Positions 30,369 to 47,309 of a stretch of DNA of 64,000 nucleotides are shown here, piece after piece. The first letter of the stretch is position 1. Each line of letters begins with the position of its first letter. Source of the stretch: Prostheceraeus crozeri. Lineage: Eukaryota; Platyhelminthes; Polycladida; Euryleptidae. Made by a program: the position numbers and the translations under genes. The DNA is taken from contig CAJQUW010005758.1 of the NCBI GenBank assembly GCA_907163375.1, positions 1-64,000 of the forward strand, in the 5' to 3' direction. A model generated the notes under the pieces. That model was not told where the DNA came from, made no database searches, and saw nothing but the letters and a program-made list of their open reading frames with translations.

Positions 30369-30407
30369 CCATTCAAGTAAGTCAGTATGAAAGCAAAGAT
30401 AATACGA

Positions 30408-30857: not shown

Positions 30858-30930
30858 GTTGTCTTTGAAATGCTGACTTTGAATAATGATAACTTTAACA
30901 TTTTTCTAATTCTTAAGTATACACAAGCAG

Positions 30931-30977
30931 CCAATCAGAATGAACATCCAATGAATGAAGAGGATGAAAGTATATAA
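30931..30977 (+). promoter_or_regulatory. CCAAT-CCAAT-TATA promoter of polB
   Basis: CCAAT at 30931 and 30948 (12 nt apart), then 18 nt to TATATAA at 30971. The right-end promoter at 47225-47271 has the same geometry (12 nt, then 17 nt). The transcript would begin near 31000 and reach ATG 31114. Confidence 0.7.
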
Positions 30978-31113
30978 GCAAAGTGACATTCAGGTCATTT
31001 CATTTAATCTGTGAATCATACAAGTGACGAACGCACGATCTCTCTCTTTGACTATTATTTGAGTGAAGTCTCTATCTTGTAGAAGTATCAACCTTAAACT
31101 TGATTTCGTTGAA

Positions 31114-34100
31114 ATGGTAAGTTGAAAATTTCCTCTCATCTCCATCAAACGTGTGACTAATAGCATCTTCCTCAATTTCAGGCATCAACTTCATCACCAA
31201 CGCCCTCTCTTCTCGAGGAAAGTTTAGAGTTATTGAGTCAAGGTAGGTTGTAACACTACACTGAGGCTTGAACAGAGATGAAAGAATGATTTCTCTTTCA
31301 GGTGATGTGAGTTCCAGCTCAGGACTCTCGCGGCAAGGCAACGAGTGGGAATGTGCCGACTGCGGACATATGTTTACAAGGAAGCACAGTCTCCTTCGAC
31401 ACATCAAACAACGTGTGTGTCAACGCAAAGCGGCGTCAATCTCCGGAGGTGAAGTTGATTCTGACGATGACATCTCCTTTCCTTGCGATTTGTGCCCTCT
31501 TTCTTTTGATAGTCACTTTCAGCGATCTTCGCACAGACTTCAACACACGCATGCAAATGATCACTACACCAACGGTACCTCTACCATCTCCCTCATTAAT
31601 GTTTCACATAATAATTTAGTACGCGACTACTGCATGGAGTCCAATACTCAAATTGTAGATTTTCCTGAGTGGCTCCTTCAAAATTCTAACATTATCGAAG
31701 CGCTCTTCAATAATTTAGACAATTTTAGAATGAAGGCGCTCATCTACTTTAAACTAAAATATATTAAAATAGATTTTCAAACGGGTCAAGTGACGGAGAG
31801 AATACAGTTTCATATTCCTTCCTCTTCCGCAACCGAAGTTGTAGACTGCGAGTCTTGGCTAAATTTTCACATTCAATGTTTAAAATCAAATGTAGATAAA
31901 TTCAATCAACGCGACAGCGCTCTCATTTTTGATGGTGTGGACTCAGCCATATTCAAAATTTCCCTATTAGAAAGTCATGCAGCTCGAGGCACATTTAAAC
32001 TTCCAAAAACGTTGTATAATAAGAAAGCTGTCATCAATGTTGATTGTAAATCACAGTGTTTCAAATATGCAGTCCTATCCATCCTTCACTATAATGATAT
32101 CAACGCGCATCGAGATCGCACCTATAGCTATAGACAGTGGGAGGATGAACTAGACTTTGAAGGTTGTGATAGTAACAACATGAAAATCAAAGATGTAGAA
32201 ACGTTCGAAAAACATAATAAGATTAAAATTGTCGTTCACGTGTAGGAGAAGGGGTTGAAGGGTGCCCGCTATAATTCACGTTCAACTTGTTATGAACGTG
32301 TAGTCAACCTCTTATTAGTAAAACAAGATGATAGCGAGGAATGGCACTACTGTGGTATTCCCAAAATCTCTCGCTTGTACACTCACTTGGGGCACTCTAA
32401 AAGAGGTGAACATTTTGTATGCGACCGCTGCATCCGCTCATTTTGGAGTAAAGATAAATTTGAAACTCACTATGAATGGTGCAAGCGAGGTAAATTACAA
32501 ATGGAACGCATGCCCAAAGATAAAATATTTTCACATAGGGATAATGGTGACGAATTAAGTCCCCTGCGTGTCATTTACGCAGACATAGAATGCTACATTG
32601 ATGATATCATCCACAAGCCAGCAGCCATATCCTGCTATGAAGTATGGCATGACCACTTTAGGAATAGACAAAACAAAATGCATACTTGGCAAGGTGAAGA
32701 TTGCATTTCAAAATTTCTAGAATTTCTCGATAAAGCTGCAAAATTTCAACAATCATATGATTCCCAATTGCAGCGTAAGTCACTACATATGTCAGATGAA
32801 GACAAACAAAAATTTGAAAGTTGCACATCCTGTCCTAAATGTCATAAAACGTTTGATGACGATAAAATTAAGAAAGTGCGTGATCATGATCACATCACTG
32901 GTAAATTTAGAAACGCACTCTGCTCCAATTGTAACTTTTCACTTAGGTTGAGACGTCGTGTACTACCCGTCATTTTTCATAACTTTAAGGGCTATGACAG
33001 TCATATGCTCATAAAAGGAGGGTTGAGCCAGATGAAATCGTGGCAGTTTAATGTAATAGCACAAACGAGAGAAAAATTCATGGCAATGACAGCAAAAGTA
33101 CCAGTAGATAAAACTAAAGAAAATAAGACAGTCTTCTTCGAAATAAAATTTTTAGATTCATTTCAATTCATGTCAGCGTCACTAGCTTCTCTCGTTCGTA
33201 ATCTCAAGTTTCTTCCCCATAGTCAAACTTTGAAGAAACACTATCCAAACTTAACGGATGAAATAATCACTCGCAAAGGAGTCTTTCCTTATGCGTATTT
33301 TAGCTCAATGTCTAAACTAAATGAAACAACCCTTCCTTCCATTGACAAATTCAAAAACGATTTGACGGGTGAAGATTGTCCAGTAGAGGACTATGAACAT
33401 GCTCAAGAGGCATGGTTAAAATTTAATTGTAAAACGTTTGGCGATTATATGATCGCTTACTTAGAATTAGATGTCATTTTGCTGGCTGATGTCTTTCAGG
33501 AGTTTCGACGAGTGGCATTAGAAGAAGACAAATTAGATCCTATCCACTTTGTCAGTCTACCAGCCATGTCCTTTAAATCAGCCTTTAAAATGACTGGTGA
33601 GACCATTCATCTCTTACAAGACCCGGAGATGTATAATATATTTGAGCGCGGAATACGCGGTGGTCTCACATTTGTAAATAAACATCATATAAAATCTGAA
33701 ACAGTAGGTGATGATCATATCCACCTAAAGTACTATGACCAAAATAATTTATATGGCAGTTCACTGTCTAAACCACTACCTCATTCCGAGTTTAGTTGGT
33801 TAAATCAAAATGAGCTTGAGTATTACTCCAACCCTTCAAACATACTGAATATTCCAGATGAAGGTGATTGGGGATATTATTTTGAAGTGGATTTGATTTA
33901 TCCAAATAGTATTAAAAATAAAACTGCTGATTTCCCACTCGCACCTGAATCTGGCGAAGTGACTGAAGATATGTTTTCACCATTCATGTCACAATTTCAT
34001 AATAACTTAACAGAGTGTGGACAGCCAAGGTACAAACCATGCCGCAAACTTTTACTCACCCAATATGATAAGAAAAATTATCTCGTACACTTCTGCATAT

Positions 34101-35086
34101 TAAAATTCTATTTAGAAATGGGCATGCTTCTAAAGTCAGTTCACCGCATTATCAAATTTAGACAGAAAGCCTTCCTCAAACCCTACATAGATAGTAACAG
34201 TCAAAAACGTGCACTCGCCCAAAATAATTTTGAAAAGGATTTTTATAAATATAAGAATAATAGTCTATTCGGAATGACCATGGAGGATGTTAGAAAACGT
34301 ATGAATTACAAACTAGTCGTTGATGAACAAAAATATCACAAATTGACCTCATCACCTCTTTTCATTGATAGAGACATCATCGATGAGGATCTTGTAGGTG
34401 TTAAAATGATTAAATCAGAAGTTGAGTTGTGCAAACCCATCTATATTGGGCAAGCCGTTTTAGATTATTCCAAGCTTGAAATGTATCAACTCTTCTACAA
34501 AATATTAAAACCATGCCCTCTCGTAAAAGAGGTTCGCTTGCTGGGTGGTGATACAGATAGTTTCTTTTTAGGAATTACCACTCAAAAAGATTTAAATTTT
34601 AATGAAGTAGGTAAGTCATTAGAAAAATATTTCGATACATCTAACTACAATCCCACTCATCCACTCTATTCCATACAGAATAAAGCCAAACTTGGTTGTT
34701 TTAAGGATGAAACAGCAGGAAAGGAAATAGATGAAATGATTCTCCTCCGTCCTAAAATGTATTCCATGAAACTAAAAGAATGTGCAGATAGTATTAAGCG
34801 TGCTAAAGGTATATCAAAATCCATTGTTCATAAAATGAAACATCGGTCCTATAAGAAGGCCTATAAAAATAAAACTATAACGTTTGTCAATATGACAATC
34901 TTAAAATCTCAAGTTCATACTGTGAAAACGTACACGTTCAAGAAACGAGCACTTTCAGCATGGGAGGATAAGAGGTGTTGGATAGGACATAACACATCTC
35001 TTCCACATGGACATCCTGACACAAACATACCTCCACCCAAAAGAATAAAACTCACGCTACCACATTCAGGAGATGTATTGACATAA
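31114..35086 (+). pseudogene. polB: protein-primed family B DNA polymerase (Polinton B), one in-frame stop
   Basis: Three exons. ATG 31114-31116 is followed at once by intron 31117-31181 (GTAAGT...TTTCAG); exon 2 is 31182-31242; intron 31243-31301 follows; the last exon starts at 31302. The reading phase is consistent across all three. N-terminal C2H2 fingers (CADCGHMF..; CDLCPLSF..) precede an extended domain. TAG at 32243-32245 interrupts the frame, which then stays open to 35086. Counting from 32255: ExoI DIEC at 110, HDH/C-x2-C patch 210-226, ExoII NFKGYD 243-248, ExoIII YLELD 402-406, Pol A YDQNNLY 494-500, Pol B KNNSLFG 667-673, Pol C DTDS 766-769. The active-site motifs are intact; only the stop argues against function. 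It could be an allele, a sequencing error or recoded. Confidence 0.92.
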
Positions 35087-35236
35087 TCAACTTTAACTCA
35101 GTATTTTGATGTTGCTTTTTGTAGATATACATGGTTGTTTTATGTATCGCATGAGATCGTTTCTTCCTTGTGAATATATGCCTACAGTCAGCCCATTCCC
35201 CCTATATCTGTGAAAAGACTTTTTCATATACATATT

Positions 35237-35250
35237 TTTATTTCAATAAA
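35237..35250. terminator. convergent poly(A) signals between polB and penton-like gene
   Basis: AATAAA plus strand at 35245-35250 and minus strand at 35237-35242. They serve the two converging transcripts ending at 35086 and 35266. Confidence 0.6.
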
Positions 35251-35265
35251 CATATCACAATGACT

Positions 35266-36816
35266 TCACTTTGTTTTCCGAAACACTAAAGTTACGAGGG
35301 ATTTAGTATCTTTCACATGGATACACTCTTGTAAACCATTGGTAATTTTGATAGCAATAGAGGGTATAGTTTGTTTGACGACGGGATGATAGAAAATAGA
35401 TTCAAACATCTTCTCGACTATTCCATATGAAGCGTCTTTATCATGAATGAAATCACGTAAAATGTATTCTTTTTTCTCGCCAACAGAAATAGGTAAAATC
35501 AAATCACTTTGAATGTAAAGGTGTTGTTCATGTTTATCAAGTGTCATTGGTGTTTCTATACCAATCGTATGCGCAGCAGCAAACACAGTTTGTAGCATTG
35601 AAAAGCCAAAGAGTTTTTTCAAATTTTTACTCAATTGACATTGAATGTCATCACCCAGTTTCAGAACAACGCGTTGTTTTTCAATTGAAAACGAAATGTG
35701 GTGTGTCTTTACATCATATTTACTTTTCATCACATGCTTCAACTTCTGTTGTATATAAGGATTTACTACATGAGTGAAGCTTTCAACTGTATGATATAGA
35801 CGCGGCATTATATTGATAGCAACTTTAGATTCTTCATAAGACTGGTAAATTTTCTTGATGCGATCGCCATAGATGTCCACCCACCATTCATCATTAACTG
35901 AATCAGCTTTAGTGTGATATTCATGAGAACCATACACCACACCGCTTCCAATAATAGGCGTATAATGTCTTACAAAATGACGCAAGGTTGGAGAGAAATA
36001 AACTGTAAGTTTGTCATTATATTTCTGAATAACCAACTTATTTTTGTCCGCCATAATTTTCTCTCCATACTTCTTACCCACAGTCTCATTCCATCGTTTT
36101 ACTAACTCAATAAGTGATAAAGGTTGAACACCACGCTTTTTCAAAATGATGCGTTCTTCGCATTCTACAACATCTTCATCAAATATTTTAAATCTATAAT
36201 GAAATTTGTTGATTCGAGTTGAATAAACTTTTTTAACATTTGCAGTAGCAATTGACGTTAGATGTAGTCCATGACCAAAACCAAGATGTGGATAGAATTC
36301 ACTATCCAACCTCAGCGTAAGACCTTTAGTAAAAGAATGAAAGCGGAGGAACTGTCTCCCACTCCAATGATAGATAGTAAACTCATAAGCTTTCTGATTT
36401 TTATTCTTCATGATGGAAGTATTACCACTGTTGAATGCCTTAATAATTTTCTCATTCCCAAATGGCTCATAAGAATCTGATTTTATCTGAATCCATTCAT
36501 AGTTCCACTTTCCATCTGATGTTAAATTGTATGGGAACTGAAATGCATTATTCATCGTTATTCCATCATGGGTGCGAGGAGTCAATATCATTTCTTCCAA
36601 ATCATTCACATTCTGAATATTGCTATCATAGCAAATACTAGAAACGCCAACCTCCCATTCTCCTTCTAAATGCAGTGGCCGATTTAATTCTACTCGATAG
36701 TCTGATGGTTTATTTTTGGGAAATTTATTCATAGAAGCATTACTGGGCAAGTAGATTAGAAACGAGTCCTTATTTTCACTTTCCATATTATTCACATTGG
36801 AAAAATATATTAGCAT
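35266..36816 (-). CDS. large penton/minor-capsid-family protein, paralogue 1
   Basis: 516 aa from ATG 36816; an internal ATG at 36783 (MESENKD) could be the true start. N-terminal signature LIYLPSNASMNKFPKNKPSD, then LEGEWEVGVSSICYD, which is widespread in Polinton genomes. The C-terminus has the IAIKITNGLQECIHVKDTKS pattern, matching the closing strands of the paralogue downstream and of the penton-like gene in Polinton A. The gene follows its paralogue by 9 bp on the same strand, so the two are probably co-transcribed. The assignment to penton or another capsid-surface protein is inferred from family pattern and location. Confidence 0.55.
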   Translation of the reverse strand: MLIYFSNVNNMESENKDSFLIYLPSNASMNKFPKNKPSDYRVELNRPLHLEGEWEVGVSSICYDSNIQNVNDLEEMILTPRTHDGITMNNAFQFPYNLTSDGKWNYEWIQIKSDSYEPFGNEKIIKAFNSGNTSIMKNKNQKAYEFTIYHWSGRQFLRFHSFTKGLTLRLDSEFYPHLGFGHGLHLTSIATANVKKVYSTRINKFHYRFKIFDEDVVECEERIILKKRGVQPLSLIELVKRWNETVGKKYGEKIMADKNKLVIQKYNDKLTVYFSPTLRHFVRHYTPIIGSGVVYGSHEYHTKADSVNDEWWVDIYGDRIKKIYQSYEESKVAINIMPRLYHTVESFTHVVNPYIQQKLKHVMKSKYDVKTHHISFSIEKQRVVLKLGDDIQCQLSKNLKKLFGFSMLQTVFAAAHTIGIETPMTLDKHEQHLYIQSDLILPISVGEKKEYILRDFIHDKDASYGIVEKMFESIFYHPVVKQTIPSIAIKITNGLQECIHVKDTKSLVTLVFRKTK

Positions 36817-36825
36817 ACTTTTGCA

Positions 36826-38223
36826 TTAACTCTTCATTCGGAAATGGAGTGTAATACTTGTCACAGCATCTTTATGAAAAGGAATCAACGCACCAGCATC
36901 ATCATAAATGGCAATATCAATTTGTGGGATGTAGTTTGATTTCAGCTTTGTATAATGCACTTTCTTGAAAGTATGCTCAGATAAAATACTGCAGCTTTTT
37001 GGCTGGTATGGTATCATTGCTAGCAATGGAGCTTCAACATCTCCCACACGTACATCTTCACCAATATTGGAATATATCTGAAAATAGTTAATACGACGCG
37101 ATAGCGACATGTCTGCGCTAGCTTTGGTTACAGTACCACTTTTAAAGATATTTTGATCAAAACCCAAAATGTCCATTAGAGTTTTATCCATAATTAGTTC
37201 AATACCTTTTCCATTTATAGTGAGAGACAAAGCACCTTCTTTTTCAGAAAATGAAATATGTTGCTCATTAATCACTTCATTTAAATAATCTACAACCAAT
37301 TTAACCGAAGTAATAATGCGAGGCATCAACACTCTTGTTTCATGTAAGAAACCACCAAAAGGCTCTACACACTTTCTGTATAAAGATACGGTCCATTCTG
37401 TATCAAATTGATTTGACCTTTCACATGGTAAATGTTGCATATCAGATTTTCCATGAACAGCTGCAGAACGATGTCGTAAGAACTGATGAAAATCTTTTGA
37501 ACAAACTAATACTAGATCATCATCATTTAATTTGCTTATTGCAATATGATTAGATGATTTAATATAAGTCAATGTTGCCACTTGTTTGTCATCTACTCGA
37601 AGGAGATAATTAAATTTCTTCAATAATGTTTCAGGAGTCATGTTTGTCTTTCTTGGCTTAATCACAATCTTCTTCACCAACGTCTTCTCATTTCTTGGAA
37701 TAAGATCTACATAATAAGCTTCCTCTCGATATATTAACTGTTTATGACCACTTATGTGGTAATTAACGTTAAAATTATCATAGCTTGTTAAGGCGCTAGC
37801 GAGGTAGCCTAAATCATTTCTTAAACTTGGACTTAAACCAACAATCCAATCTTTCTCAACTACATGATGTACATAATTATAATCATCATTGTGCGGAGTA
37901 AATTGGACAATATGTTTACACGCTTTATTCAAGAAATCATATATAAACTTTTTACATGATAAGAGATCTTTCTTTGGCCACTGTGGAATGTATATTCGGC
38001 ACCCCTTTTCACATTGGTAAGCAGCTGTACGTCTCATATTAATAGTCAACACCTCATGATCAAAAGTATAGACACAGTTGCTATAAACAAGTTGAGTGAC
38101 ACCCACTTCCCAATTCCCATTTAGCTGTTGTGCATGATCAATGGGAGTAGAAAAGAGTGCGGCTCGATTGCTAGTAAATCTCTTTGTAGCCGCATTGCTA
38201 AGCAAAATATGATAAAACGACAT
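36826..38223 (-). CDS. large penton/minor-capsid-family protein, paralogue 2
   Basis: 465 aa from ATG 38223. N-terminus SFYHILLSNAATKRFTSNRA and LNGNWEVGVTQLVYS align with the LPSNAS...WEVGV signature of the downstream paralogue. The C-terminus PQIDIAIYDDAGALIPFHKD and TSITLHFRMKS is the typical family ending. Middle regions are strand-rich and divergent, suggesting the pair took on different capsid positions. The start is 35 bp from the divergent start of the PC4-like gene, so both promoters share a very short region (38224-38258). Confidence 0.6.
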   Translation of the reverse strand: MSFYHILLSNAATKRFTSNRAALFSTPIDHAQQLNGNWEVGVTQLVYSNCVYTFDHEVLTINMRRTAAYQCEKGCRIYIPQWPKKDLLSCKKFIYDFLNKACKHIVQFTPHNDDYNYVHHVVEKDWIVGLSPSLRNDLGYLASALTSYDNFNVNYHISGHKQLIYREEAYYVDLIPRNEKTLVKKIVIKPRKTNMTPETLLKKFNYLLRVDDKQVATLTYIKSSNHIAISKLNDDDLVLVCSKDFHQFLRHRSAAVHGKSDMQHLPCERSNQFDTEWTVSLYRKCVEPFGGFLHETRVLMPRIITSVKLVVDYLNEVINEQHISFSEKEGALSLTINGKGIELIMDKTLMDILGFDQNIFKSGTVTKASADMSLSRRINYFQIYSNIGEDVRVGDVEAPLLAMIPYQPKSCSILSEHTFKKVHYTKLKSNYIPQIDIAIYDDAGALIPFHKDAVTSITLHFRMKS

Positions 38224-38258
38224 TTTTATATTGCTAATCTGCAACTTTGCATAACATC

Positions 38259-38615
38259 ATGAAGACTTGGATTTTGGACTCTCTACAATATATCAGAGTT
38301 GATCGTGATGGAAACGTACATTTCAAAAATTCTCATGGTCATACATCAAGAGGAATTACATTAACATGGCGACAATTTGTCAACCTCAATGATATCATGA
38401 GGGATTTGGAATATTTTGAAACATTAAGATTCATCTCCTTGGGTGATCAAGTTTGGCTTCAACATTACAGAAATGAAATTCAAATCTACCATTCTCATTC
38501 CGCAAACTGTTTCTCATTTCGCAAATACAATTGGGAGAAGTATAGAAGATACATACATCGCTCCATCATGACATTTATTCGTCGTGAGTTCATCGCCCTA
38601 CTATGCAAATCTTAA
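38259..38615 (+). CDS. PC4/p15-like protein 1
   Basis: 118 aa from ATG 38259. LDSLQYIRVDRDGNVHFKNS, then RGITLTWRQFVNLNDIMRDL, fits the strand-strand-strand-helix pattern of the transcription coactivator p15/PC4 ssDNA-binding domain (KGISLS..QW..L in the cellular family). A second strand-helix half follows (WLQHYRNEIQIYH; FSFRKYNWEKYRRYIHRSI). PC4 stabilises open promoter DNA and binds ssDNA. This is the first gene of a plus-strand set with a paralogue and a TBP-like gene. Similarity is at the level of pattern and not long identity, so another small nucleic-acid-binding fold cannot be excluded. Confidence 0.5.
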   Translation: MKTWILDSLQYIRVDRDGNVHFKNSHGHTSRGITLTWRQFVNLNDIMRDLEYFETLRFISLGDQVWLQHYRNEIQIYHSHSANCFSFRKYNWEKYRRYIHRSIMTFIRREFIALLCKS

Positions 38616-38637
38616 TCAGATATGATTACCACGCACC

Positions 38638-39288
38638 ATGAGTTGGAAATTAGATTCCCTACAACGTATTGAAACGGATCATGATCGAAACGTCTATTTC
38701 AAAGATTCAACTGGAAATGTGAGAAGAGAGTTTGTTTTATCTTATCGTCATTTTCAATCTCTACATCATATCATGAAGGACTTGAAATACTTCTATATGA
38801 AAAGACATTCACGTATTGGAAATCGCATCTGGCTGCGCGTCAACAATCGGCGAATTCAACTCTATCATTCCCAACTTCATACTAACTTCACATTTCATCA
38901 AGGTAGTTGGGAAAAGTATAAAAGGAAGGTACATCGCTCAATTTACTCATTCTTTCATCATGAAGCGCCATCGCTACACCATCGTCAACATTCTCCGTCG
39001 CTTCAGACTCTACACCAAAATCGATCTCACAACATTACGCCAACAGCTTCCAAACAGCAAGTATTACCCGGGCCGTCCTCAAATGTTAGTGGTGAAGATG
39101 AACAATTCACGGAATCTTCAACTCTTCCCAAATGGGACTGTACAGATTCTCGGCGCCCTTTCTCATTCATCGGCGCAGTCAATGCGCTTAGAGCTACAAA
39201 GACTACTACGTCGGATATGGAAGAGGGAGAGGTGTGTGATGTCGAATCTGACTGTGGACAATATGGTGATCTCTACTCAATTGAGTGA
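38638..39288 (+). CDS. PC4/p15-like protein 2 with overprinted tail
   Basis: 216 aa. The first 105 residues are a diverged copy of the gene 22 bp upstream: KLDSLQRIETDHDRNVYFKD, REFVLSYRHFQSLHHIMKDL, NFTFHQGSWEKYKRKVHRSI. The paralogue stops at about this point. Here the frame continues another 110 residues of low-complexity Ser/Gln/His/Pro sequence. That part overlaps the TBP-like gene (38960-39288) in a different frame. The tail is probably read-through over the TBP gene and not a conserved domain. Tandem duplication followed by loss of the stop is the simplest history. Confidence 0.5.
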   Translation: MSWKLDSLQRIETDHDRNVYFKDSTGNVRREFVLSYRHFQSLHHIMKDLKYFYMKRHSRIGNRIWLRVNNRRIQLYHSQLHTNFTFHQGSWEKYKRKVHRSIYSFFHHEAPSLHHRQHSPSLQTLHQNRSHNITPTASKQQVLPGPSSNVSGEDEQFTESSTLPKWDCTDSRRPFSFIGAVNALRATKTTTSDMEEGEVCDVESDCGQYGDLYSIE

Positions 39289-39505
39289 CAGTCTATCATT
39301 TTTGAAGATTCGTACCAGCAGTTACAGTTTGTGTTATGAACCCGAACTTTTTCCTGCAGCTCTCATTAGTTGTTGGTTGCCTGTGCATGTGGCAATCTTT
39401 CATAATAGTAAAGTGATCATTACTGGACTAAAATCTCATGAACAAGCAAATATGATCCTAGACTATCTCATTGAGTATGTACGTACCCAGCGGATTGTAA
39501 AATAA
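38960..39505 (+). CDS. TATA-binding-protein-like factor
   Basis: 181 aa from ATG 38960, the length of the TBP core. Two saddle repeats are visible. Repeat 1 runs TIVNILRRFRLYTKIDLTTL to MVVKM-like strands and NLQLFPNGTVQILGALSHSS. Repeat 2 has VDNMVISTQL, then YSLCYEPELFPAALISCWLP, VAIFHNSKVIITGLKSHEQA and a final helix. The YEPELFP, IF.S.K.I.TG.K and NMV positions match the second repeat of cellular TBP. The DNA-contacting regions have diverged. It overlaps the PC4-like gene 2 by 329 nt. Its stop codon is embedded in AATAAA. A role in directing RNA polymerase II to the element's TATA boxes is inference. Confidence 0.75.
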   Translation: MKRHRYTIVNILRRFRLYTKIDLTTLRQQLPNSKYYPGRPQMLVVKMNNSRNLQLFPNGTVQILGALSHSSAQSMRLELQRLLRRIWKRERCVMSNLTVDNMVISTQLSDSLSFLKIRTSSYSLCYEPELFPAALISCWLPVHVAIFHNSKVIITGLKSHEQANMILDYLIEYVRTQRIVK

Positions 39506-39536
39506 AAAACAATTTTTCCAACATGATGTTTTTATT
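39501..39536. terminator. convergent poly(A) signals overlapping two stop codons
   Basis: Plus-strand AATAAA (39501-39506) contains the TAA of the TBP-like gene. Minus-strand AATAAA (39531-39536) contains the TAA of the protease gene. The arrangement is very compact. Confidence 0.65.
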
Positions 39537-39993
39537 TCAAATCATGATAGAACTTACAAATCATTTTTTCATTAGAGGATGGATTACATGAAAAGTTTTG
39601 AATAATAGATGCAAATCGAGATACATGTAAACGTTTTAAGATGAAGTACAGTACAAAAGCACCACACGTTGATGAAAGTGGATGTTGTAGTATGCGTTCA
39701 TTTCGCTGATATTGACGCGTATGTTTTCTCAACCACTGCTGTGTTGGTATATTTGGAGGTTGAGCAAGAGAGTCAAATAGTTCACCACGTCGGTCTTTTC
39801 CAATAAAGATCGCTTTCCAATGCTCACCGCCTAAATTCTGTGAATGAGTGTTTAGCACAATAAAGATGGGATAGTGATTTACTGCAGGTGGTAAGGTATC
39901 GAGTGAATAGACATTATCGAAAGCTTTCAACGTCGCTTCGTCTGCATTATGCTGCACTTTAGTCTTAATATCGTCAGCAGTCAACCAACTCAT
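39532..39993 (-). CDS. adenain-like maturation protease
   Basis: 153 aa from ATG 39993. Catalytic residues: His in GGEHWKAIFIG, Asp in ELFDSLAQPP, and Cys in SSTCGAFVLYFILKRL. The start overlaps the capsid gene's stop as TAATG, a termination-reinitiation style junction. This family cleaves virion precursor proteins, so it fits the capsid operon-like block. The sequence is well diverged from the Polinton A protease. Confidence 0.9.
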   Translation of the reverse strand: MSWLTADDIKTKVQHNADEATLKAFDNVYSLDTLPPAVNHYPIFIVLNTHSQNLGGEHWKAIFIGKDRRGELFDSLAQPPNIPTQQWLRKHTRQYQRNERILQHPLSSTCGAFVLYFILKRLHVSRFASIIQNFSCNPSSNEKMICKFYHDLK

Positions 39994-41270
39994 TAACGAT
40001 TATACTGAAGAATCACGTCACGATACTTTGTAATTTCAATATTTGAATCGAAGACTGCATAAATTAATACATTGATCGTCTCAGGTAGTGTTCTTTTGAA
40101 CGTCAAATCCAAACGAATATTATGAGGCACGTTCGCTTGACGATAGGGTGCACTAATATCGCTGTCAGCAGTCAAATCAAATGCATAAATAGTATATCCA
40201 CTCTTAAACTCTTTCATAGTCAGTCCGTTGGTATCATCCGTATTGTAAAAGCCAAAGACATCCATAAAATCAACATAACTGCGCATAAATTGATCCGAAG
40301 CAAAATCTGGTTTGTAGGGTGGACCAGGATGACTCACACCATTAACACGTAAAGCAATTTCACTTAACTGATTGTGTTTAAAATTGAAAGGATTCTTCTT
40401 TATATTACCATTAAATGCATCATTTTCAACCATTGCCACCATGAGGAGCTTCGGTGCTTCCGATGGAAAGAGGCCATCTTTCATGAAACTCTTTTGATCT
40501 TTCGGAATTGTAAAGGTGAGAAGCTTTGTATGCTGAACGGGGTAAATGGCATTTTGGCGGTTAAGACCTTCAGCATGCCCTCTAATGACACTTGGATTCG
40601 GTACTACTCGACGAATGTAAAGTGCAATATCTTCCACATGAATTCTAAAATTGTCAACTTTAGCAAATGCATTCAGCGCAAATTCAGGCTTATTCAATGT
40701 CAGCTTGAGTCGCATGCTGGTATTACAGAGTAAAAACTTTGACTGTCTAAAGAAGTCTAAATTCAGCGGACCATATAGCTGACATACTCTACTATCTTTA
40801 ATCATAGCAGATCGCTTTACAAAGCCACTGTTTGTTTCAACATCAAATTTTCCTGCTTCATCTCTGTACCATCCCATGGCTTCCATATGACTTTTTTGTG
40901 CTGCTGGATGAAACTGCGATACATGAGTGAAATATGATTTATAGGGATAATCGCTTTGACCACCTTCCACCTGCTGCTCTCCAATCGTTAGAGAAACATC
41001 GCGAAGTAATGTAGTCAATGGTAAATTGTTCAGTCCAACTTTATGTGCATCGTCAATAGCAGTTCCATCTGCTTGCTGAATTCTAAACCTCAAATCAAGC
41101 ATCGCATAACTCAAATCTATGTAGTCATCACTACCACCAGGAATAACAAATTCAATGGGGCCAGCATTCTCAGCTGTTCGAGGATGATAATCTACAATAC
41201 TTGAACTAAGAATATCTGTCTGTATGGCTTGTTGATCGAACAAACAAAAACCGGAAGTTTTACACTCCAT
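39993..41270 (-). CDS. major capsid protein (double jelly-roll)
   Basis: 425 aa. Contains the Polinton capsid landmarks: GPIEFVIPGGSDDYIDLSYA near residue 40, QSDYPYKSYFTHVSQFHPAA near 105, a YGPLNLDFFRQSKFLL strand, HNIRLDLTFKRTLPETINVL near 390 and a final strand FDSNIEITKYRDVI. This matches the animal proteins annotated as F54H12.2-like, which belong to Polintons. It assembles as pseudo-hexagonal trimers. The gene is complete. Downstream it overlaps the protease (TAATG); upstream it follows the pVI-like gene by 2 bp, indicating one late transcription unit. Confidence 0.85.
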   Translation of the reverse strand: MECKTSGFCLFDQQAIQTDILSSSIVDYHPRTAENAGPIEFVIPGGSDDYIDLSYAMLDLRFRIQQADGTAIDDAHKVGLNNLPLTTLLRDVSLTIGEQQVEGGQSDYPYKSYFTHVSQFHPAAQKSHMEAMGWYRDEAGKFDVETNSGFVKRSAMIKDSRVCQLYGPLNLDFFRQSKFLLCNTSMRLKLTLNKPEFALNAFAKVDNFRIHVEDIALYIRRVVPNPSVIRGHAEGLNRQNAIYPVQHTKLLTFTIPKDQKSFMKDGLFPSEAPKLLMVAMVENDAFNGNIKKNPFNFKHNQLSEIALRVNGVSHPGPPYKPDFASDQFMRSYVDFMDVFGFYNTDDTNGLTMKEFKSGYTIYAFDLTADSDISAPYRQANVPHNIRLDLTFKRTLPETINVLIYAVFDSNIEITKYRDVILQYNR

Positions 41271-41272
41271 GA

Positions 41273-41728
41273 TTAGAAGTTATAGCAGCGTCGTCGTTTA
41301 GCGCCTGATGAATGATTAGAGCCTCTGCGACGTTTGCGTGAATGCCTTTTGACTGAAGATTGCACCTTACCAGCTCCGCGATGTTTCCTCCTTCCTTTTC
41401 TCATTCGTTTAGGTGATTTCTTTCCTTGAGTAACACCAGCAATGGTCTGCTTCAATGTTTTTAAACCGCGTTCCTTCCCACGATTCAACAAACTGCTCTT
41501 GAAACTTCTACCTCTGGAAAGATCACTAGCAACATCACCAGCAAAGCCAACGGCATTACTTAAAACATTTCGTTTTAAAGATCTACCGACATTGGATATG
41601 AGAGGTGCTACAACAGATTTCAGTGCACCAAGTATGCTACCTCCACGTTGGCGGCGAGCACCGATGTAAATTTGTCCTCCACCACTTACGTAGGAGGGTC
41701 GTGAATAAAATGAGGCAGTTGGATTCAT
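41273..41728 (-). CDS. pVI/core-like basic virion protein
   Basis: 151 aa from ATG 41728. N-terminus glycine-rich (YVSGGGQIYIGARRQRGGS), then an amphipathic stretch ILGALKSVVAPLISNVGRSL and the ASDLSRGRSFKSSLLNRGKE segment typical of Polinton minor virion proteins compared with adenovirus pVI. The C-terminal 50 residues are extremely basic (RMRKGRRKHRG; RHSRKRRRGS), indicating DNA binding. It ends 2 bp before the capsid start. It corresponds to the 161-aa gene of Polinton A by position and pattern. Confidence 0.65.
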   Translation of the reverse strand: MNPTASFYSRPSYVSGGGQIYIGARRQRGGSILGALKSVVAPLISNVGRSLKRNVLSNAVGFAGDVASDLSRGRSFKSSLLNRGKERGLKTLKQTIAGVTQGKKSPKRMRKGRRKHRGAGKVQSSVKRHSRKRRRGSNHSSGAKRRRCYNF

Positions 41729-41768
41729 AGCTCAAACCCTAAACATTGTTAGTTACAACTTTGCATGA

Positions 41769-42989
41769 ATCACTGTCGATCACTTAGATGAAAGATGTCG
41801 GCACGACGCATCCAAGAGTTCATACTTGAAGGATAACCAGTCCATTTAACAAGACACCATTCTTCACCTTGCCGTTTTTTACATCGAATGATTTTCTCTA
41901 CCAAATATGTTTCACTTTCAGTGAAACCTCAATCTCATCGCGGTAAAAGCTACCCTCAATTTCTTCATTATCGTAATCTTTCAACTTGTAGGTGGTCGGA
42001 GAGTCTTTTTGATTAATCCTTGATACTGTAAATACCTCCTCTGTCCAATTCGGGAGGTACCCTTTAGCAAAAACACTTTTCACTTTTGAGATACGAACTT
42101 TATCGCCAATTTTCACATCACTTTTCACATGAGTGCGTTTACGTTGGAATGATTCGCGCACTTTATCTACATTGTCAGCATTTACATCTACTGGTCTGAG
42201 TCCAATAGAACGATGGATAGAGTGATTGTAGGCATGGAGTGTATCTTGTAGAACCTTTGTCCAATTTTGTGTTAAGTTGGCAGTAAAATGTCGCCACAAG
42301 CGATTTTTTAATGTGCGATTAAAACGTTCAACGAGTGCAGCTTTATAAGCGCTCTTTACACTAAACAACTCAATGTCATGCCTCTCAAATAAACTTGTCA
42401 CATGCTGATTTTCAAACTCTTTTCCTTGATCACTCTGAATTCTTTTTGGAATGCGACCTTCTCGAAAAATTGTTTGGAATGCTTTTGCTACTCCTTTCCC
42501 TTCTTTAGTTTTTAAAGGTTGAGCCCACGCATAACGCGAGAAAATATCAATGACGGTTAAAATAAAATTATTGCCCGAGTTATGTTTTGAAATGGAGGCA
42601 ACATCGCACAAATCTGCTTGCCACTGTTCATCGATGTCATGAACAATATAATGGCGGGTGCGGTACTTCTTTTTCGCTTGTTTGTGGAGTGTATAGGTAG
42701 CCTGACCCTTTAACCATCGTTTCACTTGTGATTGTGGAAGACCACTCGCTTTTGATAATTTCTTGATAGATGCAAATCCTGCCGGATGTTTTACATCATA
42801 ATAGATTGACTTCAAACGTTCAGTCGATGACGGCTGACTCTTTTTCCTCCTTCTCATCTTTTTTCTTTCTTGCCTTTCTACATTTACAACAACTGCAGCA
42901 TTTAGCTTTAGCGGTTTTGCGATCGTGTTCACATTGCTTAGGGGTTTCATTATGAGAGCTGGCGCAGCAAGTGCAAGTGACAACGACAT
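41769..42989 (-). CDS. int: Polinton integrase with chromodomain in the -1 frame
   Basis: Frame 42989-41898 (363 aa): helical N-terminal region (TERLKSIYYDVKHPAGFASI), core with the catalytic triad WQADLCD, SDQGKEFEN and VERFNRTLKN, then an SH3-like domain GDKVRISKVKSVFAKGYLPN. All three acidic residues are present. The frame stops at 41898, but the -1 frame is open from about 41930 to TGA 41769 and encodes ETYLVEKIIRCKK, then WCLVKWTGYPSSMNSWM, a clear chromodomain. The frames overlap by roughly 30 nt with no canonical slippery heptamer. Chromodomains on integrases direct insertion to modified histones. Either a small indel split the gene or frameshifting is used. Confidence 0.85.
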
Positions 42990-43035
42990 TCACCTCTGGC
43001 GGCTCATTACATGGCAAGCAACACATCTGCTTCAT
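42820..43035 (-). CDS. cysteine-rich small protein overlapping the integrase start
   Basis: 71 aa from ATG 43035, in a different frame from the integrase and overlapping its first 170 nt. Twelve cysteines: CCLPC, CTCCASS, KCCSCCKC, plus a highly basic/acidic tail RKARKKKDEKEEKE. It could be an independent zinc- or metal-binding protein. It could also be the missing N-terminal zinc domain of the integrase joined by frameshifting over the A-rich stretch near 42860. The density of cysteines argues that this frame, rather than the integrase frame, is the selected one upstream of 42880. Confidence 0.5.
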   Translation of the reverse strand: MKQMCCLPCNEPPEVNVVVTCTCCASSHNETPKQCEHDRKTAKAKCCSCCKCRKARKKKDEKEEKESAVID

Positions 43036-43036
43036 A

Positions 43037-43729
43037 TTAATAGTCTGAGAACATGTATTTCCTAGGAGGAGCTGTTTTACGTTTTCCTTTTACCAGTTTT
43101 AGTGGCGATGTAGATCTACGTCGAGTTCTTCCTCTTGTTTGCTTAGTGAGTGTGGGAGGGGATGTAGCAGGTGACGTCTTAAACCAATTTGTTGGCATTT
43201 TCATCGCCTGAAGCATTGGAGTAGTAGCCACTGTTGAATCAAGTTCTTTCAATGTCTCATTATTTAAAGCAAATTTTGGCACATTATGCTTTTTCAATAG
43301 TTTAAGAAAGTATGACCAACCAGGTGGAACATAGCCCTGACGGCGCTTTCTACGTGTCGCATACTGAATCAAGTCTTCATAACGTGAAGCATCAATCACT
43401 TTATTTTCATCTGTAATGATTTCTCCTCTATCATTTACATTGAGATGGGGTTCAATACTGTTGAAAAGAGATATGGCATGTGCGCGAGATGCTAAAGGTG
43501 TAGCAGTCGATACAGAGTCACGCATCTTATTCTTCAAGTTTTTCAATTGCTCAACAGTTTCCGATTGTAATAATACAGCACGATGTGGATCTTTGATGTG
43601 AACATTTTGCTGATAATCTATTTCTTTCCTATACATTTGATTTGCAAGAGGTTGCTTTACTTGCTGCATGGCAGTCAATTGTACATATTCATCCTGAGGA
43701 ATAACAATCATGCGAGAATAAGAACTCAT
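43037..43729 (-). CDS. conserved Polinton protein of unknown function
   Basis: 230 aa from ATG 43729, overlapping the ATPase end by 4 nt (ATGA). N-terminus MIVIPQDEYVQLTAMQQVKQ, a helical middle, RRKRRQGYVPPGWSYFLKLL, and a basic C-terminus (TRGRTRRRSTSPLKLVKGKR) ending in RKYMFSDY. The opening IPxxEYxxL and the link to the ATPase recur in other Polintons, where the protein has no assigned role. Position suggests capsid assembly or packaging. It ends 2 bp before the cysteine-rich frame begins. Confidence 0.55.
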   Translation of the reverse strand: MSSYSRMIVIPQDEYVQLTAMQQVKQPLANQMYRKEIDYQQNVHIKDPHRAVLLQSETVEQLKNLKNKMRDSVSTATPLASRAHAISLFNSIEPHLNVNDRGEIITDENKVIDASRYEDLIQYATRRKRRQGYVPPGWSYFLKLLKKHNVPKFALNNETLKELDSTVATTPMLQAMKMPTNWFKTSPATSPPTLTKQTRGRTRRRSTSPLKLVKGKRKTAPPRKYMFSDY

Positions 43730-44343
43730 AGTTTGTAGATAATCATGGGAGTTTTCAAAATATCACTTCGAAATCTAAATTCTTCCGGACACTCTTGCGT
43801 AAAGTCAATGAATAAGTAACCGTATGGTTTTTCAGTAGCTGCTTGAAAAATTTCAATTAAGGCTTTTGATCCTCTGGGTGCAACTTGTCGCGCTAAAATT
43901 TCAAATTGACTTTTATCTCGCGGATTCTTGAAAATAGCATAATAGTGTGTATTCAGGTTTCGTGTACGAGCTTCTTTTCCATCAGGAAACAAATTTTGTG
44001 TAATATAGATGATAAAACACCTTTTATGGTGTGCTGCGCGAGTGAACATATCTGTAACATCTTTTGAATTCTTACTTTCTTTTAATAAATCATCCAATAC
44101 AACAACATCATTAGACTGAAGTTTATCCACTGGAATAATTCCTTCATGTCGAATAAAGTTGCGACTTTGCAATTCCTGAAACAGCGACGGTTGATAAATA
44201 CCATAACACCAAATCACTCGATTGATAGGTTCCTTAAACAACTCCCTTCTTTTATCCAATAAATTCAGCGTGAAAACAGTTTTACCTGCATGAGATGGAC
44301 CTGATACAGTCAGAACTTTATCACATTGAAGTCTGAAATCCAT
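43726..44343 (-). CDS. FtsK/HerA-class packaging ATPase
   Basis: 205 aa from ATG 44343; sequence upstream in frame has only TTG starts, and packaging ATPases of this family usually begin just before the first strand. Walker A SGPSHAGKT at about residues 14-22; Walker B DVVVLDDLL near 95; CFIIYITQNLFPDGKEAR contains the sensor/arginine region. All expected residues are present. It translocates the genome into the capsid. The downstream gene overlaps by 4 nt; upstream lies the pX-like gene. Confidence 0.9.
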   Translation of the reverse strand: MDFRLQCDKVLTVSGPSHAGKTVFTLNLLDKRRELFKEPINRVIWCYGIYQPSLFQELQSRNFIRHEGIIPVDKLQSNDVVVLDDLLKESKNSKDVTDMFTRAAHHKRCFIIYITQNLFPDGKEARTRNLNTHYYAIFKNPRDKSQFEILARQVAPRGSKALIEIFQAATEKPYGYLFIDFTQECPEEFRFRSDILKTPMIIYKL

Positions 44344-44374
44344 TTTATTACTTTGAGACTCAACATTTGCATAA

Positions 44375-44731
44375 TTAACGCTTAGAGCCAAAGATATTTC
44401 CCAATAGGTTGCCCACGGCAGGAGCTATCATTGGAAGTATTGCTGAAAGGAAACCGCCCTTTTGTGTTAGAGTTTTCCTCTTTCTTTGAAGGGCGACTTT
44501 AGGATTGGAGATGAAACGCAATTTCGTAGCATATCGCTTAAGTAACTTTCGTTGTTTTGGCGCTAATTTCTTCGTCCTCAACTTCCTCACATGAGAAATA
44601 ATTTCACAAATGAATTTATCGTTAGCATGTCGTATAGCATTGTATCGCTGATTTGCTTTCATTCGTCGGAGAGCTTGAATGGCTGAAGAAAACTTTTGAC
44701 TTTTACGTTTCGTCATTTTACGTTTCGCCAT
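44375..44731 (-). CDS. pX-like basic protein with C-terminal hydrophobic segment
   Basis: 118 aa from ATG 44731. Strongly basic through residue 90 (MAKRKMTKRKSQKF; KKLAPKQRKLLKRYATKLRF). It ends LTQKGGFLSAILPMIAPAVG then NLLGNIFGSKR. The K/R-rich body with a GGF-hydrophobic tail is the Polinton counterpart compared with adenovirus core protein X, likely condensing DNA and touching membrane. It corresponds to the 160-aa gene of Polinton A. Confidence 0.65.
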   Translation of the reverse strand: MAKRKMTKRKSQKFSSAIQALRRMKANQRYNAIRHANDKFICEIISHVRKLRTKKLAPKQRKLLKRYATKLRFISNPKVALQRKRKTLTQKGGFLSAILPMIAPAVGNLLGNIFGSKR

Positions 44732-44782
44732 TTTCCGTGTTAGTCTTTGCTAAAACCTATCTTTACCACATTTGCATAGGTA

Positions 44783-45106
44783 CTAACTATTGCGACATAA
44801 GTGACACTCGAAATGAGCAATGTCACAGTGGTTACATTGGCAAAGTTGAATGCAATTACGTATGAAACAGCGTTGACAAAAAGCATGCTTACATCTCTTG
44901 AAGATGCGCTTTTCATTTCCATCCTTTCGCTTACATACATCGCAACACATAGTTTCACCGTTACTGATGTCTATAGCAAGTCTTTTTGAAGATATGAATT
45001 TGCTAGCCTTTTCTAAATAATAGACGCATGTACAGAAGGAATATACTTCGAGAGTGAGCAGACATAGCTCGAAAACCAGTTGTGCTACAATCAAGTACCA
45101 CTGCAT
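44783..45106 (-). CDS. membrane-anchored RING-type zinc protein
   Basis: 107 aa from ATG 45106 (an upstream TTG is unlikely in a eukaryote). The N-terminal 30 residues are hydrophobic (WYLIVAQLVFELCLLTLEVY), a signal anchor. The C-terminal half reads CCDVCKRKDG, then FKRCKHAFCQRCFI and CNHCDIAHFECHLC: C-x2-C, C-x-H-x2-C-x2-C and C-x2-C spacing of a RING finger. RING proteins are usually ubiquitin ligases; the viral role here is unknown. It lies between the pX-like gene and the orphan PolB-type domain on the same strand. Confidence 0.6.
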   Translation of the reverse strand: MQWYLIVAQLVFELCLLTLEVYSFCTCVYYLEKASKFISSKRLAIDISNGETMCCDVCKRKDGNEKRIFKRCKHAFCQRCFIRNCIQLCQCNHCDIAHFECHLCRNS

Positions 45107-45108
45107 TT

Positions 45109-45519
45109 TCAATTTTTCTTTATGGAAAGTTGAATGTGAATATCTGAAATCGCTTCAATCACTAGACTGCTACCATGATGGTTAAATGCGTTAAGACGTT
45201 CAGCAATTTTTATCATATGTCTTTTAAAAAATTCTTCGGGGTGATCTACCACTTCCATTGAATAAGAAGCAAAATGGAAAGAGCGACTTTCCACCTCTTC
45301 CTTTCCAAAATGACTAAACTTAATTTTCGCAACTAATCGCGCCATGATAATGCTATCAGAGAATGTATTCATTAACTCTAGAAATAGAGTGCTAGCATCA
45401 TCGACCACTGCTTCGATGTCGGTCTCATCTTTATGAAATTTTATCACATAATCTTGAACAGCTCCTTTTAAACTTTGCCTATGAAAACGTAATGTTCCGC
45501 AGTCGTTTGAGAAAGACAT
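45109..45519 (-). CDS. stand-alone copy of the polB N-terminal domain
   Basis: 136 aa from ATG 45519. ARLVAKIKFSHFGKEEVESR, SMEVVDHPEEFFKRHMIKIA and ERLNAFNHHGSSLVIEAISD follow position by position the region before the exonuclease domain in Polinton B polB. There, encoded at about 31720-31980, it reads KALIYFKLKYIKI, DCESWLNFHIQCLK and DKFNQRDSALIFDGVDSAIF. The Polinton A polymerase has the same domain ending RESGW. Here it is detached and encoded on the opposite strand at the right end. It may partner the polymerase or terminal protein, or be a repurposed duplicate. Function of the domain is not established. Confidence 0.6.
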   Translation of the reverse strand: MSFSNDCGTLRFHRQSLKGAVQDYVIKFHKDETDIEAVVDDASTLFLELMNTFSDSIIMARLVAKIKFSHFGKEEVESRSFHFASYSMEVVDHPEEFFKRHMIKIAERLNAFNHHGSSLVIEAISDIHIQLSIKKN

Positions 45520-45606
45520 GATCGCCCTTTATCTAACCCATCCATTGCATGAAAACAACAACTCTTCTCATAGTAACATTTATTGAATAATGGTAACAAG
45601 CATGCA

Positions 45607-46137
45607 TTATAAATCAATGGTTTGAAAGAGATAAAATAGATACAGCTGGTAACTATCATACAGCGAGCAATGATAACCATACAGGACTTTGGCAGTGTTG
45701 AGGTAAGGAGGAAAGAAGCATTGGTTATGAACGTAGCTACTACAACGAACAGACAAAATAGGAACACACAAATCCTTAAAACGTTTTGTGACTTCATGAT
45801 AATGTTGATTCACTCTACTATCCCAAGGTGGGAGCAAAATATCATCAATGATTAGATTGGGAAATACTTTCCTCTCCTTACCAGGATTATTACAAAAGAT
45901 GCGTATAACATTGAAAGCAGCTAACCATCGTTTAAAGTCAATAAGAAGAGCACTCTCACAAGAAAAGCCATAGTCTTGCAAATATTTCAGATTAAGTCCA
46001 TGAATGTGTTTTCTCGCCCATTGATCAACATTGGGATCGCAGTTGGCATGTTGATGATAGACACTAACAATCTGATATGTCCAATTGTTCATAGCAATAG
46101 CACTGAGCTCCTGTACAGGTTCACCCTCACAATCCAT
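45607..46137 (-). CDS. DEDDh (DnaQ-like) nuclease-like protein
   Basis: 176 aa from ATG 46137. It opens with MDCEGEPVQELSAIAM, where D-x-E fits ExoI of DEDD exonucleases. KHIHGLNLKYLQDYGF follows (the H-x-x-GL motif seen in RNase T/DnaQ relatives). NLIIDDILLPPWD is a candidate for a second acidic site, and YGYHCSLYDSYQLYLF has the H-x4-D ExoIII pattern. Short proteins of this kind occur in invertebrate Polintons without known function. Single-strand DNA or RNA trimming during replication or repair is possible. The minus-strand AATAAA near 45586 follows it. Confidence 0.5.
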   Translation of the reverse strand: MDCEGEPVQELSAIAMNNWTYQIVSVYHQHANCDPNVDQWARKHIHGLNLKYLQDYGFSCESALLIDFKRWLAAFNVIRIFCNNPGKERKVFPNLIIDDILLPPWDSRVNQHYHEVTKRFKDLCVPILSVRCSSYVHNQCFFPPYLNTAKVLYGYHCSLYDSYQLYLFYLFQTIDL

Positions 46138-46189
46138 AAAAATGATGATAGAAGCCTAAAACGGAAATTTACACATCTAAGGAAACGTT

Positions 46190-46390
46190 CTATAACATAT
46201 TAAAAAATGAAGAATTACATCGATGCTTTTCACGACAAAATACACAAATGATATGATGGCAACGAAGAAGTAAAATGTATCTAATAAGACCACGTCTACG
46301 ACACTCAAAGCACATAAGCGAATTGTCATAGGGTAGAGTTAGGAAAGGACTAGCAATTCTCCTTCTTTGATTTGCGTTTTGATGTAGCAT
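46190..46390 (-). CDS. second RING-like small zinc protein
   Basis: 66 aa from ATG 46390. CFECRRRGLIRYILLLRCHH, then IICVFCREKHRC: C-x2-C...C-x-H-x2-C-x2-C...C, a compact RING-like arrangement lacking the last pair. The start overlaps the end of the 131-aa gene by 41 nt in another frame. Together with 44783-45106 it makes two small RING-like genes in one segment. Function is unknown. Confidence 0.45.
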   Translation of the reverse strand: MLHQNANQRRRIASPFLTLPYDNSLMCFECRRRGLIRYILLLRCHHIICVFCREKHRCNSSFFNML

Positions 46391-46745
46391 TCTTCTCCGA
46401 CTTGCGCTTCGTACTACTGCTGTTAAGGATTTGATCAATTATGTCGTCCACGTTGGGTGGTTTCGGAATATATAGGATGGATTCCATATGCATGGAGAGA
46501 GAGGCTATTTTATTATCCTTGTGTCGACCATAATATAGCCCATTCACTTTGAAAAGGATATCCCAAGTACCTTCTCCGAGCTCATCACATCTGATGGGTA
46601 TTGAATGATCTCCCTCCTTCTTATAGTAAGTACACCAATGTGATACCGGTAGGCAAATGTGATTACCATCCCAAATCTTTCTATAGGGAGTATCCTTGTC
46701 ATCTCTCGCCTTCCACTCTTGAGCAAGAGGAGTAGGAATGTCCAT
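46350..46745 (-). CDS. unknown protein (131 aa from first ATG)
   Basis: The frame is open from 46802, but the first ATG is 46745. Residues upstream of that ATG (YIRHQLDIIEEYVTLN) look coding. The body reads DDKDTPYRKIWDGNHICLPV and EGTWDILFKVNGLYYGRHKD; the C-terminus is lysine-rich (STKRKSEKNATSKRKSKKEN), like a nuclear localisation tail. The preceding frame (46799-47053) ends exactly where this one opens, at a GTGAGT sequence. They may therefore be one gene joined by splicing or split by an indel. Confidence 0.5.
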   Translation of the reverse strand: MDIPTPLAQEWKARDDKDTPYRKIWDGNHICLPVSHWCTYYKKEGDHSIPIRCDELGEGTWDILFKVNGLYYGRHKDNKIASLSMHMESILYIPKPPNVDDIIDQILNSSSTKRKSEKNATSKRKSKKENC

Positions 46746-46798
46746 ATTTAATGTCACGTACTCCTCAATAATATCAAGTTGGTGGCGAATGTATGGAC

Positions 46799-47123: not shown

Positions 47124-47224
47124 TTTAGTTGGATAATAGAACAGGGAACTAGAGAGAGAGAAAATGTGCGTCCGTCACTCGTGTGATTCAACGATGGAAT
47201 GATTCTCACTGTGGAAGGCTCGCT

Positions 47225-47271: not shown

Positions 47272-47309
47272 ACAATAACATCAAGTTGATTCCAAATCTG
47301 GCATCCGTT

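Follow-up and report, generated by a model that had tools for sequence, protein, structure and literature searches.

We analysed a stretch of 64,000 nucleotides (the window) within contig C4790 of the 2.05-Gb genome of the flatworm Prostheceraeus crozeri, and describe here a gene for a TATA-binding protein (TBP) carried by a transposon of the Polinton type, Polinton B. The gene (38960..39505, plus strand) encodes a protein of 181 amino acids (aa) with both saddle repeats of TBP and follows two genes for PUR-like proteins. It represents a genuine Polinton TBP family, overprinted with a candidate single-stranded DNA (ssDNA)-binding protein of the PUR-like kind, and most likely serves as a general transcription factor of the element. 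With a probability of about 0.65, Polinton B has a module dedicated to transcription and replication, whose TBP would most likely bind the element's core promoters and recruit host TFIIB and RNA polymerase II (Pol II). The TBP and the overlapping PUR-like gene suggest that the element brings along part of its own gene-activation machinery.

A TATA-binding protein gene inside Polinton B

The location of the gene cassette inside a Polinton, proposed in the preliminary description of this DNA, is supported. Polinton B (24187..48049, 23,863 bp) has AG...CT ends and terminal inverted repeats, is flanked on both sides by the 6-bp target-site duplication GTCCTG, and encodes a retroviral-type integrase (rve; 41898..42989, minus strand; Pfam E 9.5e-11, 42.3 bits against a cut-off of 32.6). 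The assignment of the 181-aa product as a TBP with two saddle repeats, first made by eye, is far beyond chance: the Pfam TBP family (PF00352) matches it in two stretches with 74.2 bits against a cut-off of 22.9 (E 7.6e-21). Solved TBPs are recovered by sequence search (best E 2.8e-14), and ten NCBIfam TBP models match as well, every one below its curated cut-off. The structural comparison proposed at the outset gave the same answer. The AlphaFold2 model has a mean pLDDT of 95.5, and its 44 PDB matches at E <= 0.001 are TBP entries or TBP-containing initiation complexes or fusions, with query-normalised TM scores of 0.72-0.82; for some of the complexes the TBP identity of the matched chain was taken from the title. 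Identity to solved TBPs in the structure alignments is only 20-27%. Among viral models searched with Foldseek, the best named matches listed are TBPs of large DNA viruses, with at most 20% identity in the rows listed; the Foldseek and VIA lists are limited, and a fold missing from them is not thereby excluded. By the family profile the window has a single TBP gene, and a second element there, Polinton A, has none. IMG/VR gave no matches with the TBP alignment, the polymerase of Polinton B or its 425-aa protein as queries, and the GTDB genomes gave nothing with the TBP alignment.

Conservation of the TBP is likewise supported. A protein search retrieved 60 relatives from 99 candidates, all with the TBP domain, some partial and none named by its source, whose alignment identities with the window TBP range from 31 to 78%. 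In its own genome the gene is present in at least 150 copies that are 100% identical over all 181 residues (150 scored of 11,886 candidates), and the queries P0019 and P0001 retrieved further TBP variants among the matches listed there (at least 150 rows). With the window as reference, the per-site ratio of nonsynonymous to synonymous variants at 30 of 31 loci that represent 29 copies (L011 and L038 are one copy; L025, 84.8% identical, was excluded) is 0.23 for the TBP outside its overlap with the preceding gene (gene 2) and 0.51 within it; the first gene of the cassette (gene 1) has 0.42, the domain of gene 2 has 0.59 and its tail 0.78. Inserted copies go on to drift, and the ratios that hold under selection are therefore probably below these values. 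These figures dispose of the concern, raised beforehand, that the cassette might exist as a single copy free of purifying selection.

A standard C-terminal and a remodelled N-terminal saddle half

We mapped residues of 61 family sequences onto solved TBPs in yeast numbering, taking the roles of the mapped positions (DNA contact, TFIIB, TFIIA and helix 2) from the TBP-DNA literature. The C-terminal saddle half is standard, with N159, V161 and F207 present in 61/61 sequences and F190 and T215 in 60/61; the L205 position is mostly Ala. The TFIIB-contact loop is kept as well (E186 in 60/61, E188 in 61/61), and the window TBP has all three of its residues, E186, E188 and L189. The N-terminal half retains N69 (49/49 sequences with letters there) and F116 (61/61). 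Its V122 is Gln in all 61 sequences, F99 is replaced by Pro in the window TBP and in 57/58 sequences with letters, Thr is found at position 124 in no family member, and the V71 position is mostly Met or His. Three of the four intercalating phenylalanines (F99, F116, F190 and F207) are therefore retained in the window TBP and F99 is lost.

Because the C-terminal half and the TFIIB loop are standard, the protein is expected to retain bending of TATA-type DNA and TFIIB binding; the retained TFIIB-contact residues of cellular TBPs also make a redirection of Pol II to the element's promoters plausible. The N-terminal saddle half reads the downstream half of the TATA box. Since this half is remodelled throughout the family, an altered specificity for the downstream half-site is expected, which should be read differently from that of a cellular TATA box.

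Two PUR-like genes, one of them overprinted with the TBP gene

All three plus-strand genes of the cassette at 38259-39505 are present as predicted, although they do not lie back to back: gene 2 enters the TBP gene by 329 nt in another frame. Gene 1 (38259..38615) encodes a protein of 118 aa of the PUR/Whirly/PC4 superfamily, with relatives (P0062-P0064) of 118-119 aa. Gene 2 (38638..39288) encodes 216 aa, of which approximately residues 1-110 form a PUR-like domain and the remainder a tail predicted to be disordered, with an acidic end. The two are paralogues, as had been claimed, with 42-43% identity. Their earlier description as PC4-like holds only at the superfamily level. PC4 proper was dropped for both genes: there is no PC4 profile match, and PUR-alpha, the best match of the double repeat in the fold search, fits far better than PC4, which is also listed together with MRP1/MRP2 and Whirly. 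The predicted structure shows the PUR double-repeat fold. No PUR or PC4 Pfam model appeared for either gene among matches to E 10, with HMMER filters discarding most matches above about 0.1, and PHROGs gave nothing useful for gene 1, gene 2 or the TBP. A protein in a JGI data set (P0067, on a 10,296-base contig and labelled hypothetical protein) is 99% identical to that of gene 2.

A stretch of 329 nt (38960..39288, plus strand, +1 frame) encodes both the tail of gene 2 and the N-terminal part of the TBP. The tails of relatives P0067-P0070 align with that of gene 2 without gaps (98, 78, 64 and 61% tail identity), and when read in the shifted frame they fit 17, 17, 17 and 16 of the 17 conserved TBP residues; in 50 shifted control registers for each relative the mean fit was 22-25% and the highest 44-50%. 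As P0067 is 99% identical to the gene 2 protein of the window, the three relatives P0068-P0070 carry the weight of this test. An overlap by chance, or as a by-product of the TBP, was rejected. A constraint on the TBP only, with random synonymous codons, would put an average of 7.0-8.4 stops into the frame of gene 2 and predicts 22-32% tail identity; P0068-P0070 have 61-78% and no stop. With codons mostly retained (p = 0.8), a by-product would reach 48-85% identity and be free of stops with a probability of 0.0005-0.14, which makes the test weak for close relatives alone. None of the tails of P0068-P0070 has an exact TBP partner among the 60 relatives; a relative is found either as tail or as TBP, probably because gene callers usually keep one of two overlapping open reading frames (ORFs).

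A second lineage with the same module

The same genome holds a second lineage (C), of which seven copies were fetched (L029-L035). Their TBP is 42-44% identical to that of the window, and all 7 have an open TBP frame of 179 aa. The overlap is also found there: in L030 the PUR-like ORF and the TBP have 341 nt in common, again in the +1 frame, and under random synonymous codons the absence of a stop there has a probability of 0.001. The PUR-like gene is retained alongside a DNA polymerase, which is 57-64% identical to that of Polinton B over most of the longer matches (53% in one piece of L029); the zinc-finger part is about 40% identical in most copies. In six of the seven copies, with approximately 20 kb fetched, tblastn with the Polinton B proteins (E <= 1e-3) gave no match to capsid, integrase, protease or ATPase, a search that relatives too divergent could escape. 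The upstream flank of L032 (L044) has an integrase match (38%) and a weak protease match of unclear ownership. The limits of one copy could be set on contig C1266 (L034 with L040 and L048) at approximately 65.57-82.06 kb, giving an element of roughly 16.5 kb whose inverted repeats are 94% alike and, over 109 bp, 88% identical to that of Polinton B. Lineage C looks like a capsid-less, integrase-less derivative that retains the PUR-TBP module; it may borrow the other functions in trans and is possibly a satellite mobilised in this way.

Candidate promoter boxes

A canonical TATA box, TATAAAAG, lies 43 nt before the TBP ATG (38917..38924, plus strand), inside the codons of gene 2. It is retained in L046, a copy about 85% identical to the window, and TATAAA stands at that place in 7/7 lineage-C copies. 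Further TATA boxes are found at 28646..28653 (plus strand; -39/-37 from the ATG of an 88-aa ORF) and 29168..29175 (plus strand; -48/-46 from that of an 83-aa ORF). All five TATA boxes that the preliminary description placed upstream of at least five genes exist in the sequence, yet these last two are the only ones within 50 nt of the ATG of a tested ORF. The TATA box as a general promoter signal of Polinton B was not supported: TATAWA occurs within 55 nt of only 4/18 genes, once at -7 (mean 0.68 at random positions, P 0.0044). TATAWAAG is not enriched over the window (11 against 9.1 expected).

A k-mer test of the 80 nt before 18 ATGs of Polinton B gave ATGCAAA as the top 7-mer, present in 6/18 genes against 0.3 expected (p = 4.3e-7 uncorrected; approximately 0.007 after correction by 16,384). 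All six occurrences fall within 55 nt, where 5000 sets of random positions averaged 0.22 and reached 4 at most. The 18-gene set omits the zinc-finger start and the first ATG of the polymerase ORF, both boxless, with which the count becomes 6/20; also outside it are a 109-aa ORF with a TTG start (44783-45112) and ORFs at 27239-28174. Among 92 internal in-frame ATGs, a single one has ATGCAAA upstream, and this is the alternative start (36786) of a boxed gene whose first ATG is at 36816. ATGCAAA precedes 0/16 starts of Polinton A, where TATAWA precedes 6/16. Over the whole window the motif is not enriched (19 against 25 expected); only its placement is unusual.

The box is TATGCAAAT before gene 2 (38602..38610, plus strand, -36), before the packaging-ATPase-like gene (44365..44373, -30) and before a 118-aa gene at 44375-44731 (44770..44778, -47), the latter two on the minus strand like those that follow. 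It reads TATGCAAAG before the 36826-38223 gene (38245..38253, -30), CATGCAAAG before a basic 151-aa gene (41759..41767, -39) and AATGCAAAA before the 35266-36816 gene (36819..36827, -11 from the first ATG or -41 from the ATG at 36786); a weaker form, CATGCAATG, is found at -32 from the ATG of a 136-aa gene (45543..45551). Five of these seven boxes lie outside coding sequence, and two share bases with the 3' end of the gene before. All four readable sites in two copies about 85% identical to the window (two sites in L046 and two in L051) have the core TATGCAAA unchanged; one L046 box differs in its ninth base with the core intact. In the leader of the 118-aa gene 36/52 positions match overall and the box is intact, and in the intergenic stretch 38224-38258 29/44 columns match. 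Copy C11536 is not collinear with the window, and two box stretches were compared there.

Other genes and surroundings of Polinton B

Polinton B also encodes a candidate protease of the C48/adenain type (39532..39993, minus strand; Peptidase_C48 E 0.00066, 20.0 bits, just below the curated cut-off of 20.7) and a packaging-ATPase-like protein (43726..44343, minus strand; a weak Pox_A32 match under the cut-off, E 0.026). An ORF of 943 aa (32255..35086, plus strand) has the motifs of a family-B DNA polymerase by eye only, and its sole Pfam match above cut-off is an endonuclease VII-type domain. It is preceded in frame by a zinc-finger ORF (31268..32245, plus strand), with a stop between the two in the window copy; in the lineage-C copy L034 the same region is one ORF of 1190 aa. 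The 425-aa product of 39993..41270 (minus strand), which we take to be a double jelly-roll major capsid protein candidate, has no family match in Pfam or NCBIfam. Two neighbours, 35266-36816 and 36826-38244 (both minus strand), have similar N-termini (34.8% identity over 66 residues, one against a copy of the other) and possibly encode virion proteins. Pfam recognised no TFIIB gene among 18 scanned ORFs. Polyadenylation-type signals, which lie near 6 of 19 stop codons, were not used as evidence.

Beside the left inverted repeat a unit of about 290 nt is repeated (24832-26293). Polintons A and B adjoin at approximately 24186, and the same short sequence is found, inverted, in the left flank of A (approximately 4715-4742) and the right flank of B (48050-48080), as if both had inserted in a host palindrome.

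Proposed function and alternatives

The module we propose consists of two PUR-like, putatively ssDNA-binding proteins and a TBP whose N-terminal half shares its DNA with the second protein's acidic-ended tail. The TBP would probably be made early, from its TATA box at -43, and the PUR-like proteins would most likely bind ssDNA, either strands displaced in replication or melted promoters. Several observations weigh against this proposal. The TFIIA-contact face and helix 2 positions of the TBP differ from those of cellular TBPs, so its interaction partners may differ too. Conservation of TATAAAAG is in itself no proof of a promoter, because conserved gene 2 residues are encoded there. An alignment of 11 sequences underlies the gene 2 fold match, and no E-value < 0.001 came from plain Foldseek on this gene. 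Most genes of Polinton B are without a recognisable box, with exact ATGCAAA before only 6/18 and TATAWA before 4/18. Finally, lineage C keeps the TBP and shows no ATGCAA box in the 70-nt upstream regions listed for its ORFs, and ATGCAAAT is the classical POU octamer; for these two reasons the link between TBP and ATGCAAA is a hypothesis.

These last two points favour a reading of the ATGCAAA boxes by a host POU (octamer) protein or another host factor, unrelated to the element's TBP, to which we give slightly less than even odds. The spacing argues against this reading, as the boxes lie mostly 30-47 nt before the ATG, where the TBP gene and the two ORFs have their TATA boxes, and octamers usually lie further upstream of the core promoter. 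A bolder extension of the TBP reading is that the element has its own core-promoter code. The remodelled TBP (Val122 to Gln, Phe99 to Pro, Thr124 lost) would read a G-C-centred relative of TATA, TATGCAAA, mostly 30-47 nt before ATGs of the structural or late type, while host TBP would read the ordinary TATA box of the TBP gene, giving an early/late switch by TBP replacement. The model for it is the promoter switch of beta- and gammaherpesviruses, and we hold it to be tentative and rather unlikely; if it were true, a herpesvirus-like promoter switch would reside in a transposon of 24 kb, and the switch gene would be overprinted on that of its ssDNA-binding partner.

The balance is even on whether the PUR-like genes encode the replicative ssDNA-binding proteins (SSBs) of protein-primed replication and not transcription factors, which would make the cassette a replication-plus-transcription module. 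The fold matches to PUR-alpha, MRP1/MRP2, Whirly and PC4 and the retention of the gene with the polymerase in lineage C speak for this, as does the acidic tail end, which resembles the acidic tails of replicative SSBs; the tail could equally be an activation domain, however, and the tight overlap with the TBP gene could be a sign of co-regulation. It is improbable that the TBP is a decoy acting mainly on the host, titrating TFIIB or occupying host TATA boxes to depress transcription in the host, with other promoters serving the element. A protein with the TFIIB loop kept and the N-terminal saddle half altered could indeed hold TFIIB without normal promoter recognition, but F116, Q122, N159, V161 and F207 in 61/61 sequences point to retained DNA binding, and the element's own boxes lie at similar distances from its ATGs. 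We give hardly any credence to a captured host gene decaying without function. The low identity to solved TBPs would suit it; the 60 relatives, the intact frames of the second lineage, the overlap conserved in two frames and the ratio of 0.23 do not.

With a conserved TBP family in Polintons, independent promoter recognition would reach much lower on the size scale; virus-encoded TBPs were known before from very large DNA viruses and, distantly, herpesviruses. Polintons are proposed ancestors of many eukaryotic DNA viruses, which raises the question whether giant-virus TBPs came this way. The family-wide change of one saddle half and the conserved candidate boxes in the same element make TBP specificity directly testable, and the conserved double-coding stretch, with an apparently capsid-less lineage that retains the module, offers a genetic handle on its purpose.

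Comparison with known systems

Our full-text searches, mostly outside subscription journals, found no TBP gene described in a Polinton or Maverick among the matches listed, in agreement with the statement in the preliminary description that no such cassette was known. The Polinton, Maverick and animal-virus literature checked by term contained TATA 0 times, and TBP 0 times where looked for; the occurrences of 'TATA' in PMC12220804 are an author's name, and the texts mentioning both polinton and tbp concern other subjects in their available parts. Polinton B itself resembles known Polintons/Mavericks in its inverted repeats, 6-bp duplication and integrase, and by weak match or by eye in its protease, ATPase-like protein and family-B polymerase.

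With cellular TBP (the TFIID subunit, PF00352) the Polinton protein shares the two-repeat saddle fold, the DNA contacts of the C-terminal half and the TFIIB-contact loop; it differs in its low overall identity, in the family-wide replacement of the N-terminal contacts F99, V122 and T124 and in being encoded on a mobile element. The PUR-like gene has 7-9% identity to PUR-alpha, MRP1/MRP2 and Whirly, and the overlapping acidic tail is a feature of the Polinton gene. Among viruses, the Foldseek matches include TBPs of Nucleocytoviricota, for example those of Heterosigma akashiwo virus 01 and Terrestrivirus. CpV-BQ1 is reported to encode two TFIIBs and one TBP, proposed to redirect host Pol II (PMC12085832), TBP is reported in 59% of mirusvirus genomes (PMC10132985), and Cymbomonas, an alga that also has Polinton-like viruses, is reported to carry TBP genes in putative mirusvirus-derived elements (PMC10675990). 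Giant viruses and mirusviruses have genomes of hundreds of kilobases, in contrast to a 24-kb transposon, and the listed structural matches are at most 20% identical. The closest functional analogy is the late pre-initiation complex of herpesviruses, in which the TBP-like BcRF1/ORF24/UL87 is reported to recognise its own late-promoter box (TATT) and to recruit Pol II (PMC4893493). That complex comprises the TBP-like protein plus five others and uses TATT, whereas the Polinton box is ATGCAAA and its pairing with the Polinton TBP is hypothetical.
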